From Mycolicibacterium fluoranthenivorans (GTDB lineage Bacteria; Actinomycetota; Actinomycetes; Mycobacteriales; Mycobacteriaceae): a DNA stretch of 64,000 nucleotides. Each line of letters starts with the position of its first letter. Positions within the stretch are counted from its first letter, which is position 1. Under the pieces are notes generated by a model, which searched no databases, was not told the origin of the DNA, and was given only the letters and a program-made list of their open reading frames with translations. Of this stretch, positions 43,160 through 58,980 are shown in pieces. The position numbers were made by a program, and so were the translations under genes. The stretch is from positions 248,001-312,000 of the forward strand of contig NZ_JAANOW010000001.1 in assembly GCF_011758805.1 (NCBI RefSeq), read 5' to 3'.

Positions 43160-43474
43160 ATGTGGTGCGGGCGGATGTTGGTCGGGGCGGTGTTGATCGC
43201 TGCGGCGCTGACCGCCGCCCCCGCCGCGCACGCGGAGGGGGCCGATGCGGTCATCGCCGACCTCGAAGACCAGGGTTACCTGGTCCACATCAACTGGGTG
43301 AACGGCTACGACACCAAACCGCTGTCCTCGTGCACGGTGGTCGCGGTGAACAATCCCGATCACTCGGGTGCGCCGCCGGCGACCGGTGACACCGTGTACG
43401 TCGACGTGCGCTGCCCGAACCACAACGATGACGATCCGGGCGGTGAGTTCGGCATCGGTATCGGGTTCGGCTGA
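43160..43474 (+). CDS. Small secreted protein
   Basis: This secreted protein of about 104 residues is unknown to me. From ATG 43160 it reads MWCGRMLVGAVLIAAALTAA with a clear signal peptide ending AAHA (about residue 26). ATG 43175 or an upstream start at 43085 are possible. The mature part, about 78 residues, has two cysteines (SSCTVVAV, DVRCPNHNDDD), probably a disulfide, and a glycine-rich end (GGEFGIGIGFG). Such small exported proteins are frequent in mycobacteria. No operon partner is evident. Confidence 0.75.
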   Translation: MWCGRMLVGAVLIAAALTAAPAAHAEGADAVIADLEDQGYLVHINWVNGYDTKPLSSCTVVAVNNPDHSGAPPATGDTVYVDVRCPNHNDDDPGGEFGIGIGFG

Positions 43475-53879: not shown

Positions 53880-54335
53880 TCATCTGACCGGGCTCGCGCT
53901 TCGCGGTGCGGGCGCGTGGAAGGCCGGGACGGCTTGGGTGACGCGGCGCTGGTCGCGCATGATCCGCCGGTTGAGAATCCGCTCGTCCCTGGGGGTCACG
54001 GTGCGGTTCTGGCGGGCCAGCAGATCCAGCTGTTCCCAGCTGAGACCGTCCAGGTCGCCGTCGGCGTCATGGGTGGCCACGACGATGCTGCCACGCAGCA
54101 GCGGAACCGTTTTCGCGGTGAAAGACGTGGTCGCCAAGAGTAGTTCGGAGGCCCGGCGATTGACGCGGCGCTGGCACCGCCGGGAAGTCGGGCTGAACCA
54201 GAAGTCGAACTGGCGGTCAGCGCTGGTCAGGCACTGCAGCCCTTGGTCGTGGATGAGCTGGGTGATATCGGCCTGGGTGTAGGCGCGGGTTTCATATACG
54301 GCGCCGGTGGCGCTGAAGTAGAGGACGGTGTTCAT
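53880..54335 (-). CDS. Hypothetical protein, basic
   Basis: This 151-residue protein starts at ATG 54335 (MNTVLYFSATGAVYETRAYTQ). It has no signal peptide or membrane segment. The middle and end are strongly basic (SPTSRRCQRRVNRRASE, RDERILNRRIMRDQRRVT), which would suit nucleic-acid binding. I do not recognise the domain. It is divergent from the secreted peptide gene at 54678 and is 160 bases beyond the start of the efflux pump gene. Confidence 0.65.
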   Translation of the reverse strand: MNTVLYFSATGAVYETRAYTQADITQLIHDQGLQCLTSADRQFDFWFSPTSRRCQRRVNRRASELLLATTSFTAKTVPLLRGSIVVATHDADGDLDGLSWEQLDLLARQNRTVTPRDERILNRRIMRDQRRVTQAVPAFHAPAPRSASPVR

Positions 54336-54575
54336 GATGATGACCCATTCGGCTCTTTCTCTGTGGACGGGTGCGCCGGCGCCCCGGCGCTGTTGCCAGA
54401 GATACCCGTGTGACAATTGAGGTAAACGTCGATCACGGTTCGGATAATTCCCGCGAAGCGAACCGTGCCCTTCCGGTATCTCCGTGCACCTGCACGGTGT
54501 TTAGCCGACGTGCGCTCGACAGATGACTGGCGGCGACGTCCCGGTACCACATCCTGCCAACCGTGCGCCAATTTC
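54336..54575. other. Intergenic DNA upstream of the first secreted peptide gene
   Basis: About 240 bases without a supportable gene; with the promoter box and leader at 54576-54677 the whole gap is about 340 bases. Its composition is lower in GC than the surroundings. It must include the promoter of the basic hypothetical protein on the minus strand. I see no other clear structure. Confidence 0.4.
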
Positions 54576-54611
54576 TGCCAACGGAATTAACCGTACTGAC
54601 CTGCGTGTTAT
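54576..54611 (+). promoter_or_regulatory. Promoter box of secreted peptide gene 1
   Basis: TGCCAACGGAATTA (54576-54589), then GTTAT (54607-54611) 17 bases further on. The same two elements, TGCCATCGGAATTA and GTTAT, occur before the paralogous gene. The GGAA...CGT/GTT pattern is reminiscent of extracytoplasmic (ECF) sigma factor promoters, but no sigma can be named. Confidence 0.5.
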
Positions 54612-54677
54612 GAGAGTCAGACCGGCCAGGAGAACCCCGAACCGGTAAGCGGACCCCAAGCAGAAGGACTGATGAAA

Positions 54678-54845
54678 ATGAAGAAGTTCGGATTTGCCAG
54701 CGTCATCGCCACCGGATTCGCCGCCGCCCTCGTCGGGTTGGCCGCGCCGGCTCAGGCCGATATCACCCACCACGACTGGGTGCACGAAATCCAGCAGCAC
54801 GCGAGCACCGGCCAGGTGACGTCGACCTTCGGCAACGGCCGGTGA
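54678..54845 (+). CDS. Secreted 55-residue peptide, paralog 1
   Basis: This tiny gene has ATG 54678 as start, nine bases after GAAGGA, matching the paralog exactly; ATG 54672 would add two residues. The product has a 27-residue Sec signal (MKKFGFASVIATGFAAALVG...PAQA) and a 28-residue mature peptide beginning DITHHDWVH and ending TGQVTSTFGNGR. Twenty-one of the 28 mature residues are identical to the paralog at 57979, including HHxWVH and the entire C terminus. It has no cysteines. The three close histidines could bind a metal; a role as signal, toxin or cell-wall peptide is equally open. A GNAT gene follows 21 bases later. Confidence 0.82.
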   Translation: MKKFGFASVIATGFAAALVGLAAPAQADITHHDWVHEIQQHASTGQVTSTFGNGR

Positions 54846-54866
54846 GCGGCTTGTAGCGTGTCCTGG

Positions 54867-55361
54867 ATGTGCGCGGGGACGGTCGAGTTCGTGATGGTGC
54901 GGCAGGACGACCCGCTGGCGGAACCCCTGTTGGCGGAGCTCGGCCTGGAGTACCGCGCGCGCTACGGCGATCTGAGCGGTACCGAATACGCCGATATGCG
55001 CAGCTATCCGGCCGAGCAGTTCGCGCCGCCGGGCGGCGTGCTCGTGGTGGGGTTATCCGGCGGAATACCGGTGGCAGGGGGCGCTTTTCGCCGCCTGGAC
55101 GCCTCGACGGCCGAGCTGAAACGGATCTGGACATCGTCGGAGCACCGTGGTCGCGGTTACGGCAAACTCGTGGTGGCCGAGCTGGAGCGCATTGCGCGGG
55201 AACGCGGCTATCGCCGGGTGTACCTGACCACCGGCCCCCGCCAGCCCGAGGCGGTGGCGCTGTATCTGTCGACCGGATACACCGCGCTGTACGACCGGGC
55301 GTTGCCCGCCGAGCAGGTCGGCGTGCACGCTTTCGAGAAGCAGCTCGGCGCCGCCGGGTAG
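54867..55361 (+). CDS. GNAT-family N-acetyltransferase
   Basis: This acetyltransferase of about 164 residues transfers an acetyl group from acetyl-CoA to an unknown amine. The acetyl-CoA loop is SSEHRGRGYGKLVV (about 93-106), followed by the usual RRVYLTTG strand and AVALYLSTGYT. The start may be GTG 54858, ATG 54867 or ATG 54894. It lies only 21 bases after the secreted peptide gene and may be transcribed with it. Modification of the peptide would be an interesting idea, but the enzyme has no signal sequence. Confidence 0.85.
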   Translation: MCAGTVEFVMVRQDDPLAEPLLAELGLEYRARYGDLSGTEYADMRSYPAEQFAPPGGVLVVGLSGGIPVAGGAFRRLDASTAELKRIWTSSEHRGRGYGKLVVAELERIARERGYRRVYLTTGPRQPEAVALYLSTGYTALYDRALPAEQVGVHAFEKQLGAAG

Positions 55362-55410
55362 GCGCTGCCACAGACCAGCGCCAGCTGCGTCGGTGTGGTA
55401 GACAGCGGCT

Positions 55411-56856
55411 GTGTCTGGCGATTTGGTGCTCCAGCCGGGCCGGACGTGCTGGCGGGTGGAACACGCCGGCAAGGTCGCCTTCATCGTCGACGGCGCGGAC
55501 TACTTACGGCACGTCAAGGCCGCGATGCTGCGTGCCCGCCATCGGATCATGCTGATCGGCTGGGATTTCGACGGCAGGACCACCATGGAGCAGGGCGAGA
55601 CCACGCTGCCCGGGCCCAATCAGTTGGGGGCTCTGCTCTACTGGCTGATGTGGAAGCGGCCCGACCTGGAGATCCACGTCCTGAAGTCCAATCTGCGGCT
55701 GCTCCCGGTGTTCGACGATCTCTGGTACGGGCTGACGCCGGTGACGGTACTGAATCGGCTCAGCGGCAGGCGAATCCGATTCGCGGTGGACGGCCGGCAT
55801 CCGACCGGTGCGGTCCACCACCAGAAGGTCGTGGTCATCGACGACGTGCTGGCTTTCTGTGGCGGTATCGACCTCACACTGGGACGCTGGGACACCTCAG
55901 AACACTTGGATGACAGCGTGTTCCGCCGGGACTACGGCCCCCGGCACGAGATCGCCGCGGCGGTCGACGGTGCGGCCGCGAGCGGGCTGGGTGACCTTGC
56001 CCGGGACCGATGGGAGGCGGCCACCGGTCAGTCCCTGGACCGGCTGGAGGTGACGAACCAGGCGTGGCCGCGCGGTCTGGAACCCGACGCGACCGATGTC
56101 GGCGTGGGTATCGCGCGGACCATCCCGGACCTCCCGGACCGCGACGAGGTACGCGAGGTGGAGGCACTGAACCTGGCGGCCATCGCGGCGTCCCGGCGGA
56201 CCGTCTATCTGGAGAATCAGTACCTGGCTTCCCGGCGTCTCGCCGATGCGCTCGCCGATCGGCTACGGGATCCCGACGGGCCGGAGATCGTCATCGTGCT
56301 GCCCCGCCGGTCCGAGAGCCGGTTGGAGCAGGAATCGATGGACAGCGCGCGCAAGCTGCTGCTCGAAGAGCTCTGGGCTGCCGACAACCAGCACCGGCTG
56401 GGCGTCTATTGGCCGGTGACCGACGCCGGCGCGCCGATCTATGTCCACTCCAAGATCCTGGTCGTCGATGACAGGTTGCTGCGCATCGGCTCGTCCAACC
56501 TGAACAACCGGTCGATGGGCTTCGACAGTGAGTGCGATGTGGCCATCGAGTCGGGTCCGGCAGATGACTCCCTCCGGCAGACGATCACCGCTTTCCGGAA
56601 CCGACTGATCAGCGAACATCTGGGTGTCGCCGCCGGCGACTTCGACGCAGCACTGCAGGACGGCGCGACCTTCCTGGAGGCCACCGAGGCACTGATCGGC
56701 GAGGGCAGGACGCTGCGCCGGTTCACCGCGGATACGGTTGTCGGCGAAGGCAGCCCGCTCGCGGAGAACGAGCTGATGGATCCCGACCACGTGCCCAGCT
56801 CACTGGCCACCAGCCTGCGGCGACTCCTCACCAGGCTGGGCAACTCGCGCGGGTGA
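55411..56856 (+). CDS. Phospholipase D-family protein
   Basis: This 481-residue cytoplasmic-looking protein has two PLD (HKD) motifs: HHQKVVVIDD with GGID (about 131-150), and VHSKILVVDD with GSSNLNNRSMGFDSE (about 346-373). It starts at GTG 55411. The sequence between resembles the PLD/cardiolipin-synthase-like proteins of bacteria (ENQYLAS is the usual family mark). It lacks the N-terminal membrane segments of cardiolipin synthases, so hydrolysis of phospholipids, or transphosphatidylation at the membrane surface, is more likely. It follows the GNAT gene by 49 bases. Confidence 0.88.
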   Translation: MSGDLVLQPGRTCWRVEHAGKVAFIVDGADYLRHVKAAMLRARHRIMLIGWDFDGRTTMEQGETTLPGPNQLGALLYWLMWKRPDLEIHVLKSNLRLLPVFDDLWYGLTPVTVLNRLSGRRIRFAVDGRHPTGAVHHQKVVVIDDVLAFCGGIDLTLGRWDTSEHLDDSVFRRDYGPRHEIAAAVDGAAASGLGDLARDRWEAATGQSLDRLEVTNQAWPRGLEPDATDVGVGIARTIPDLPDRDEVREVEALNLAAIAASRRTVYLENQYLASRRLADALADRLRDPDGPEIVIVLPRRSESRLEQESMDSARKLLLEELWAADNQHRLGVYWPVTDAGAPIYVHSKILVVDDRLLRIGSSNLNNRSMGFDSECDVAIESGPADDSLRQTITAFRNRLISEHLGVAAGDFDAALQDGATFLEATEALIGEGRTLRRFTADTVVGEGSPLAENELMDPDHVPSSLATSLRRLLTRLGNSRG

Positions 56857-56874
56857 ACGGCCGATGGCCTCGCA

Positions 56875-57855
56875 TCACCGGGACGGATCCGGTATCCGGT
56901 CGCCGAACAGTCGCAGCGCGTTCTGGTAGCCGACCTTGCGGCGGTCGGCCTCACTCATCGGATACGAGGCCAGGAATTCGGCGCCGGCGACGTTGTCATC
57001 CATCGGATAGTCCACCGAGAACATCACCCGATCGGCGCCGAGCACCGACAGTGTGCAGGCCATGGCGGGCGGGGAGAAGTTTCCGCTCGTGGTGACGTAG
57101 AAGTTGTCCCGCAGATACTGCGACGGGAGCTTGGCCAGATCGCCGCCTGATCCGCCCAGTCCGTAGTAGCGGTCGGTGCGGAAGGCGGTGAACGGCAACA
57201 TCTCTCCGAGGTGGCCCAGGATCATCTGGAGTTTCGGATGCCGGTCGAACAGCCCGGAGTAAATCAGCCGGAGTGCATGCGTACCGGCTTCGACCGCGAA
57301 ACCCCAGGATGCGAGGTGCAGACCCTGATCGGTGTACGGGGCGAACCAGGCGGCCATGACCGCCGGGTGCGGTGTGGTCGGGTGCAGGTAGATGGGCACG
57401 CCCAAGCTCTCGGCCGCGTCGAACAGTGGCTCATACGCGGGATCGTCGAGATACCGCCCGTGGGTGTGACCGTTGATCAGCGCACCGGCGAAGCCGAGGT
57501 CGGTGACTGCGCGGCGCAACTCGACGGCTGCGGCATCCGGATTCTGGGTGGCCAGCGTCGCGAAGGCGCCGAATCGATGGGGGTACTGCCGTACCGTCTC
57601 GGCCACATTGTCGTTGGCCCGGCGCGCGTAGTCCACCGCCAGCGCGGTGTCGGTGTACTCCTGTACGCCGGGATCGAACAGAGACAGGATCTGGAAGTCG
57701 ATGCCGGCGGCGTCCATCTGCTCAAGCCGTAACGGCCCGCGATCGTAGAGCCGGTCGTAGCCGAGCTGATTGTGTGTGCGCAACCAGCCCGCCACCTCGT
57801 TGCCGTCGCTGACGGGATCCCAGGCGAAATGCTCTTCCAGCGCGATCAGGTGCAT
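56875..57855 (-). CDS. Amidohydrolase 2 family decarboxylase-like enzyme
   Basis: This 326-residue TIM-barrel enzyme starts at ATG 57855 (MHLIALEEHFAWD). The EEHF opening, YLHPTTPHP near 157, the metal histidine in ILGHLGEMLPF near 215 and the catalytic Asp in FSVDYPMDD near 280 are typical of the gamma-resorcylate / 2,3-dihydroxybenzoate decarboxylase branch. It may decarboxylate a hydroxybenzoate reversibly. The frame runs open further upstream across the second peptide gene, but that part is antisense noise. Confidence 0.85.
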   Translation of the reverse strand: MHLIALEEHFAWDPVSDGNEVAGWLRTHNQLGYDRLYDRGPLRLEQMDAAGIDFQILSLFDPGVQEYTDTALAVDYARRANDNVAETVRQYPHRFGAFATLATQNPDAAAVELRRAVTDLGFAGALINGHTHGRYLDDPAYEPLFDAAESLGVPIYLHPTTPHPAVMAAWFAPYTDQGLHLASWGFAVEAGTHALRLIYSGLFDRHPKLQMILGHLGEMLPFTAFRTDRYYGLGGSGGDLAKLPSQYLRDNFYVTTSGNFSPPAMACTLSVLGADRVMFSVDYPMDDNVAGAEFLASYPMSEADRRKVGYQNALRLFGDRIPDPSR

Positions 57856-57900
57856 GCCGCTGAGGATACGTAGGGCGACTGCCACTCGACGGTCAATTGC

Positions 57901-57935
57901 TGCCATCGGAATTACCGGGCCGGGCCGGGCGTTAT
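57901..57935 (+). promoter_or_regulatory. Promoter box of secreted peptide gene 2
   Basis: TGCCATCGGAATTA (57901-57914), then GCGTTAT (57929-57935) 14 bases on. It corresponds to the box at 54576, with one base less between the elements. The intervening DNA is otherwise unrelated, so the two conserved blocks are probably functional. Confidence 0.5.
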
Positions 57936-57978
57936 CCACGCCAGAAGCAACCCGAGCATCCCACGAAAGGGATTGGAA

Positions 57979-58146
57979 ATGAAGAAGTTTGGATTCACCG
58001 GAGTCATCGCCACCGCGTTCGCCGCCGCCGTCGTCGGACTGGCTGCGCCCGCGCAGGCCGATATCGCCCATCACGAGTGGGTGCACGACAACCAGCAGCG
58101 TGCCACCACCGGTCAGGTGACAGCGACCTTCGGTAACGGTCGCTGA
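57979..58146 (+). CDS. Secreted 55-residue peptide, paralog 2
   Basis: This tiny gene has ATG 57979 six bases after AAAGGGA. The 27-residue signal (MKKFGFTGVIATAFAAAVVG...PAQA) precedes a 28-residue mature peptide that begins DIAHHEWVH and ends TGQVTATFGNGR. Compared with paralog 1, substitutions in the mature part are mostly conservative (Asp/Glu, Ser/Thr, Ala/Ser), while the histidines, tryptophan and C-terminal 6 residues are invariant, which suggests selection on the peptide. The downstream LLM oxidoreductase starts three bases after its stop, so translation is probably coupled. I know no function. Confidence 0.82.
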   Translation: MKKFGFTGVIATAFAAAVVGLAAPAQADIAHHEWVHDNQQRATTGQVTATFGNGR

Positions 58147-58149
58147 TCG

Positions 58150-58980
58150 ATGAAGTTCGGAATCTCGACCTTCGTGACCGATGACACCATCGACACCGTC
58201 ACGCTGGCCCAGGCCATCGAGGAACGGGATTTCGACGCGCTGGCCATCGCCGAACACACGCATATCCCGGCCAGCCGGGAATCGGCGTACCCGTTGGGCG
58301 GCGAGCTACCCGCCATCTACTACCGGACCCTGGACCCGTTCGTCACGCTCGCGGCGGCCGCGGCTGTCACCTCCCGCATCCAGCTGGTCACCGGTATCGC
58401 GCTGCTCATCCAGCGCGACCCGATCATCGCCGCCAAAGAAGCCGCCAGCATCGACCTGATCTCCCACGGCCGCTTCGTGTTCGGCGTCGGCGCCGGGTGG
58501 AATCTGGAGGAGTTACGCCATCACGGCACCGACCCGAAGACGCGCGGCGCGCTGCTGGACGAGCGGATCGAAGCGATCAAGGCGCTCTGGACCACTGAGC
58601 CCGCCGAATACCACGGCAAGTACGTGGACTTCGACGCGTCCTACCTGCGGCCCAAACCGGTACAGACGCCGCACCCGCCGATCCTCATCGGTGGCGACTC
58701 GGATGCCACCGTCAAGCGCGTCATCCGGCACGGTGCGGGTTGGATCTCCAATCCGCTCCCCGTGGAGCGACTGACCCGACGCATCGAGCAGCTGCGCGAC
58801 GGCGCCGGTCACGATGTGCCGCTGAGCACGTTCGGCATCCCGCTGAACCCCGAGTACTGGTCCGCCTTGGAGCGCCTCGGCTTCGGGCAACTGAACCTGT
58901 TGCTGCCGAGCCTGCCGCGCGATGAGGCGCTGCGCCTGCTCGACGACTACGCCGACTCGGTGGCGAAGTACCGCGGTTAG
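58150..58980 (+). CDS. LLM-class F420-dependent oxidoreductase
   Basis: This 276-residue luciferase-like TIM-barrel protein is of the F420-dependent type common in mycobacteria (MKFGISTFVTDDTI, LAIAEHTHIP, TGIALLIQRDPIIAAKEAASID, GRFVFGVGAGWN near 110-121, PILIGGDSD near 180). It transfers hydride between reduced F420 and a substrate that cannot be predicted. The start ATG 58150 is three bases beyond the secreted peptide stop, and any ribosome site would lie inside the peptide's last codons, so the two are probably translated together. Confidence 0.88.
   Translation: MKFGISTFVTDDTIDTVTLAQAIEERDFDALAIAEHTHIPASRESAYPLGGELPAIYYRTLDPFVTLAAAAAVTSRIQLVTGIALLIQRDPIIAAKEAASIDLISHGRFVFGVGAGWNLEELRHHGTDPKTRGALLDERIEAIKALWTTEPAEYHGKYVDFDASYLRPKPVQTPHPPILIGGDSDATVKRVIRHGAGWISNPLPVERLTRRIEQLRDGAGHDVPLSTFGIPLNPEYWSALERLGFGQLNLLLPSLPRDEALRLLDDYADSVAKYRG

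Follow-up and report, generated by a model that had tools for sequence, protein, structure and literature searches.

A 64,000-nt stretch of the Mycolicibacterium fluoranthenivorans genome (assembly GCF_011758805.1, contig NZ_JAANOW010000001.1, positions 248,001 to 312,000 of the forward strand; hereafter the window, with positions counted from its first letter) contains two small paralogous genes on the + strand, each preceded by the same promoter-like element. Gene 1 (54678..54845; signal part 54678-54758, mature part 54759-54842) and gene 2 (57979..58146; signal part 57979-58059, mature part 58060-58143) code for P0001 and P0002, two precursors of what are here called HHxW peptides. As the initial annotation had described, both genes have 168 bases and code for 55 residues, comprising a 27-residue signal-like start and a 28-residue mature part; the mature parts are identical at 21 of 28 positions (seven differ) and cysteine is absent. 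The full precursors share 80% identity over 55 residues. Cleavage was placed by eye at an AxA-type site after residue 27 (between APAQA and D), which leaves 28 residues. In-frame alternative starts lie 6 nt 5′ of each gene (ATG 54672 for gene 1, TTG 57973 for gene 2). Comparison of the complete genes gave 0.098 for nonsynonymous (dN) and 0.607 for synonymous (dS) substitutions, a ratio of 0.16 that is well below the value of 1 named in the initial annotation as counting against selection on the peptide; the mature part alone gave dN/dS values of 0.115/0.654 (Nei-Gojobori estimates, which are noisy on genes this short). Judged from these comparisons, the two are real genes under purifying selection as a pair, and their products are predicted to be exported.

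Upstream of both genes lies a block of about 55 bases, CTGCCA-N8-TCAATT-N-CTGCCA-NN-GGAATTA, followed by GTT. At gene 1 (site 1, 54554..54580, + strand; one mismatch to the pattern) the CTGCCA direct repeats occupy 54554-54559 and 54575-54580, 21 bp apart, with CCAATT between them. The adjoining candidate promoter (54583..54611, + strand) has a -35-like GGAATTA (54583-54589) and a -10-like GTTAT (54607-54611), in the spacing GGAAT-N19-GTT, with a weaker third repeat, CTGACC, at 54596-54601. At gene 2 (site 2, 57879..57905, + strand; no mismatches) the repeats are found at 57879-57884 and 57900-57905, again 21 bp apart, with TCAATT between them; the candidate promoter (57908..57935, + strand) comprises GGAATTA (57908-57914) and GTTAT (57931-57935), spaced GGAAT-N18-GTT, and CTGACC is absent. 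Within the window the element occurred only at genes 1 and 2, and none of 100 shuffles gave two matches. Three sites with up to three mismatches were found in the 6.4-Mb genome, those of P0002 (0 mismatches), P0001 (1) and a further paralog, P0124 (3). Each lay 64-88 nt 5′ of the start codon of a family gene, and the reversed pattern gave no matches.

The element was present in 91 of 198 Mycobacterium genomes (the reversed pattern in none of those listed), in 6 of 10 Mycobacterium genomes of a second draw, and in none of 141 genomes representing 30 other genera. Up to nine sites were carried by a single genome (G185). The 147 distinct sites read were among the matches listed, identical 140-nt surroundings having been merged; the true total is higher. 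A signal-like small open reading frame (ORF) was present 3′ of the element in 144 of the 147 sites; the same rule (the best ORF has 45-115 aa, starts no more than 260 nt away and scores at least 3.2 on a home-made scale, not SignalP) was satisfied at 47 of 2493 positions drawn at random in 10-kb loci. The three misses were L160 (contig end), L162 (the frame extends to 176 aa) and L199 (nothing recognisable). Locus L141, a broken frame of the kind C described below, nevertheless passed the signal score, and L130 and L159 contain N bases. In the sites read, L160 and L199 apart, the first ORF was never seen to be a regulator, a transporter or an enzyme. Counted from the gene side, the element was found at up to three mismatches in 64, and at up to four in 70, of 81 family ORFs for which 150 nt or more of upstream sequence could be read (one of the 82 ORFs collected was omitted, its upstream region being too short). 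That the element exists and associates with small signal-like ORFs can be regarded as nearly certain.

Several properties of the sites lay outside the search. GTT was not part of the pattern, yet it stood 18 nt after GGAAT in 85 of the 147 sites, 19 nt in 55 and 20 nt in 6, whereas at each other offset between 10 and 39 it was found in 0-3 sites. Among 101 non-redundant sites, unsearched columns were conserved, for example position 12 (C in 92%) and position 10 (G in 80%), and the leader downstream of the element had drifted. The weaker third repeat, in the form CTGA[CG]C, was present 20-22 nt past the second repeat in 80 of the 147 sites. The GGAAT/GTT promoter was found in 69 of 82 family upstream regions, the shuffle mean being 2.9.

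The window genes belong, by sequence similarity, to a large unannotated mycobacterial family. At E≤1, a search with a single sequence found 199 clusters of homologous proteins, 120 of them listed; at E≤0.01, a profile built from both subtypes and the longer relatives found 2143, of which again 120 were listed; few organism names were given among the 120 listed profile matches, all of them Mycobacterium. The family was matched by 85 of the 198 Mycobacterium genomes at E≤0.001, some of these matches covering the signal part alone. Exactly 55 residues were coded by 67 of the 82 family ORFs collected, and several members are arranged in tandem. M. fluoranthenivorans itself has two further full-length paralogs, P0123 (contig C2) and P0124 (C1), both ending in HQSH; P0123 adjoins dicarboxylate-transporter-like and PhoH-like ORFs (names assigned by eye). 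For the window peptides no Pfam or NCBIfam family exceeded its cut-off: P0001 scored 15.1 bits against DUF4148 (gathering score 27) and did not match DUF732 at E≤0.1, while P0002 was unmatched in Pfam, the gathering scores for DUF732 and DUF4148 not being reached. A search of solved structures by sequence with the HHxW profile gave a best E of 0.16, and viral contigs yielded one partial match, to residues 16-32 only. The HHxW peptide was modelled as a single helix (residues 3-40) plus a loose tail, with a predicted local distance difference test score (pLDDT) of 68.

The signal part and the C-terminus are conserved in the family. The motif within the mature part was followed in 107 family sequences; the pattern used to choose them demanded Trp and accepted H, N, D or Q at the first position. 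In HHxWVH, the first His was present in 107 of 107, the second in 79 and the third in 33; four longer relatives, outside the Trp pattern, carry Arg in place of the first His. The sequences ended in GNGR in 50 of the 107 and in GDGR in 2, most others having QSR, QSH, GSR or SGR forms. Initially described as invariant in the window pair, the residues HH-W-VH and FGNGR are not all kept across the family, and ‘HHxWVH + FGNGR’ is best considered the signature of one subtype.

Proteins of several kinds were found behind the 147 sites. The HHxW peptides (kind A) accounted for 39 of them, proteins carrying the C-terminus of A after a spacer (kind B) for 18, proteins of about 99 aa (kind C) for 64, a short form of the latter (kind C′) for 9, and proteins of 61 aa (kind D) and 56 aa (kind E) for 8 and 6, respectively; two sites fell outside kinds A-E, plus one at a contig end. 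The mature parts of kinds C, C′, D and E lack the HHxW motif. Mean signal-peptide identity was 0.62 within A, 0.64 between A and E, 0.56 between A and C′, 0.49 between A and C and 0.51 within C, while the mature parts of unrelated kinds were identical only at chance level (0.05 for A versus E). The signal of kind D is an exception (0.44 between A and D, 0.81 within D). These values suggest that the promoter moves jointly with the signal and that the two become attached to different mature domains. A class-E small protein is also encoded in the M. fluoranthenivorans genome (L005, 1426-1595, - strand; C1:1531177); its signal is of the MKKFGFA type, its mature part is unrelated and its site is degenerate (six mismatches). 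For kind C, the mature part of about 70 residues was modelled as a helix followed by three strands, an arrangement that may resemble the PASTA domains of PknB and PBP2X and that applies to this kind only. The first 16 rows of its structural comparison, which covers the folds on the VIA list, were all PknB or PBP2X entries. Among 120 listed UniRef homologs of kind C, four were named ‘PASTA domain-containing’; in Pfam, 53 members matched 14 families at E≤1 without PASTA being one of them, and the best match of class C to a solved structure by sequence had an E of 0.073.

The architecture of the element invites comparison with two known types of promoter. XylS sites have a 21-bp period and overlap the -35 region. 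As described in PMC5481539, they consist of two direct repeats, each with a box A and a box B. The element shares with Pm and other AraC/XylS promoters a pair of direct repeats that lie about 21 bp from each other, have two boxes apiece and adjoin the -35. It differs from XylS/Pm in that its boxes are CTGCCA and TCAATT, its -35/-10 resembles that of extracytoplasmic function (ECF) sigma promoters, no linked regulator gene was found here, and its targets are small predicted exported proteins. The second type is that of the mycobacterial SigE/SigH-type ECF promoters, whose consensus has GGAAY at -35, GTT at -10 and a spacer of about 17-19 nt. Most family upstream regions agree with this consensus, having GGAAT and, 18-19 nt downstream, GTT; what they have in addition is the repeat pair, at a fixed distance and before genes for small secreted proteins.

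Since a small predicted exported protein stands behind nearly every site, the window genes likely belong to an undescribed regulon, a dedicated mycobacterial one of small exported proteins that share a single promoter signature. We favour as its mechanism a switch that combines an activator and an ECF sigma factor, with a probability of about 0.6. A dimeric AraC/XylS-like activator would bind the two CTGCCA repeats, abutting the -35, and help an ECF-type holoenzyme to initiate transcription. The precursors would be exported by Sec, and the 28-residue peptides would function at the envelope or extracellularly, alongside the co-regulated mini-proteins, the commonest of which is predicted to fold in a weakly PASTA-like manner. 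In M. fluoranthenivorans, the set would include genes 1 and 2, P0124 and the class-E peptide with its degenerate site; P0123, with the promoter and without the repeats, may be a further member. A bolder proposal, to which we would give somewhat less than even odds, is that environmental mycobacteria possess a mobile cassette, formed by one activator-plus-ECF promoter and one signal peptide, that has been joined time and again to short mature domains of unrelated kinds (HHxW, PASTA-like and at least two others), all placed on a single switch and aimed at an outside target or a neighbour. No paper on the peptide family, the element or the regulon was found in the open-licence literature of PubMed Central. 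As hardly anything but unnamed small secreted proteins follows the signature, many ‘hypothetical’ mycobacterial ORFs would become one testable regulon. The element would serve to find members missed by annotation and as DNA bait for the regulator, and the function could be approached by asking what induces it. Should the apparent reuse of a single promoter-and-signal module with unrelated mature domains prove true, it would offer a clear example of how bacterial secreted proteins evolve in a modular way.

Several observations weigh against an activator-controlled regulon of this kind. The genome contains 21 AraC-type helix-turn-helix matches, none of which lies in the window or is tied to a site. 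No recognisable site (at least eight mismatches) was present in 11 of the 81 family ORFs, including P0123, which keeps GGAAT-N19-GTT without the CTGCCA repeats. Six distant class-C relatives in the same genome also lacked a site in the 190 nt read (L277 was left out, its start not having been found), and the likeness of kind C to PASTA is weak. Further, the median dN/dS over all pairs was 0.58 for the mature part and 0.25 for the signal, a value of at least 0.8 being reached by 30% of the mature pairs; pooled within subtypes, the values were 0.43 and 0.52 for the mature part against 0.23 and 0.20 for the signal. By these estimates, the mature part is constrained yet evolving faster than the signal. 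One of the class-C relatives without the element sits in the window (43187-43354, + strand; E 2.8e-4). A subgroup of the family (L015, L016, L017, L022 and L083; MKKFSIASIVASGF...) lacks the repeats and carries GGAATGAAA plus a GTT that begins 36 nt before the start codon; its transcript would therefore be nearly leaderless.

The faster-changing mature parts, together with the small size, the predicted export, the many variable paralogs and the nine sites of G185, would also suit peptides acting as signals (pheromones), a role raised in the initial annotation too, or as toxins against neighbouring bacteria. Pfam searches of the window neighbourhood revealed no linked receptor, dedicated exporter or protease, or immunity gene, and the neighbours differ in most relatives; this reading is thus unlikely, if still credible. 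We consider distinctly unlikely the view that the shared promoter reflects ancestry only, the promoter and signal segment having been copied in duplicates that today have no common regulator. The signal peptides are indeed related across most kinds and several members lie in tandem, but element columns that stayed conserved while the leader beyond them drifted, a GTT spacing held at 18-19 nt, and the retention of the element by kinds with unrelated mature parts in distant species all speak against ancestry alone. Metal binding had been proposed in the initial annotation, and the window pair has several His residues; the HHxW peptides might be extracellular chelators controlled by a metal-responsive site. 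This is very unlikely: a conserved metal site is unsupported because the second and third His vary widely. Arg replaces even the first in the longer relatives, kinds C, C′, D and E carry the same site before mature parts without the motif, and the element was not recognised as a binding site for IdeR, Zur or RicR.

The activator-plus-ECF switch remains the preferred reading of the element, and the two enzyme genes that follow the pair lie outside the system. Gene 1 is followed by a GNAT acetyltransferase gene (54867..55361, + strand; Pfam PF00583) and gene 2 by an F420-type LLM oxidoreductase gene (58150..58980, + strand; Pfam PF00296, NCBIfam TIGR03619 above cut-off). The close spacing reported initially was correct (21 bases to the GNAT ATG at 54867, three to the LLM ATG at 58150; an in-frame GTG at 54858 also precedes the former). 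Peptide and enzyme do not form a unit: of the 79 loci in other genomes, 5 have these neighbours at high identity, and they are kept beside the peptide only in near relatives. That the ORFs are leader peptides controlling translation of the next gene, as starts only 21 and 3 nt away might indicate, is scarcely tenable given that the enzymes 3′ of the two paralogs are unrelated, that these neighbours were not found at high identity in 74 of the 79 loci, and that the signal part and the C-terminus are conserved.

Twelve of the 147 site leaders, belonging to kinds A, C and C′ (L130, L140, L160, L176, L202, L208, L218, L221, L230, L241, L248 and L255), carry a further element, CCGAACCGCGAC-N-GCCACGGCTCGAAC, some 20 nt ahead of the start codon; it was also observed in L306, L311, L313 and L315. 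Exact matches to it numbered 12 in 98 genomes, eight with the CTGCCA site and four, without it, before a glyoxalase-like ORF (named by eye). No clear hairpin was predicted for it (RNA fold z -0.34, one sequence). An Rfam search over ten fetched loci produced one match, BjrC68 in L130, which was rejected at 29.6 bits (gathering score 39), and a scan of 54400-58300 of the window gave nothing at E≤1. By Pfam, the window neighbourhood contains GNAT, PLD-like, LLM and VOC proteins and one ORF without a match. The 178-residue ORF at 53880-54416 (- strand) has no Pfam or NCBIfam match; it is conserved, at 83-87% identity, beside gene 1 in L036, L050 and L060.

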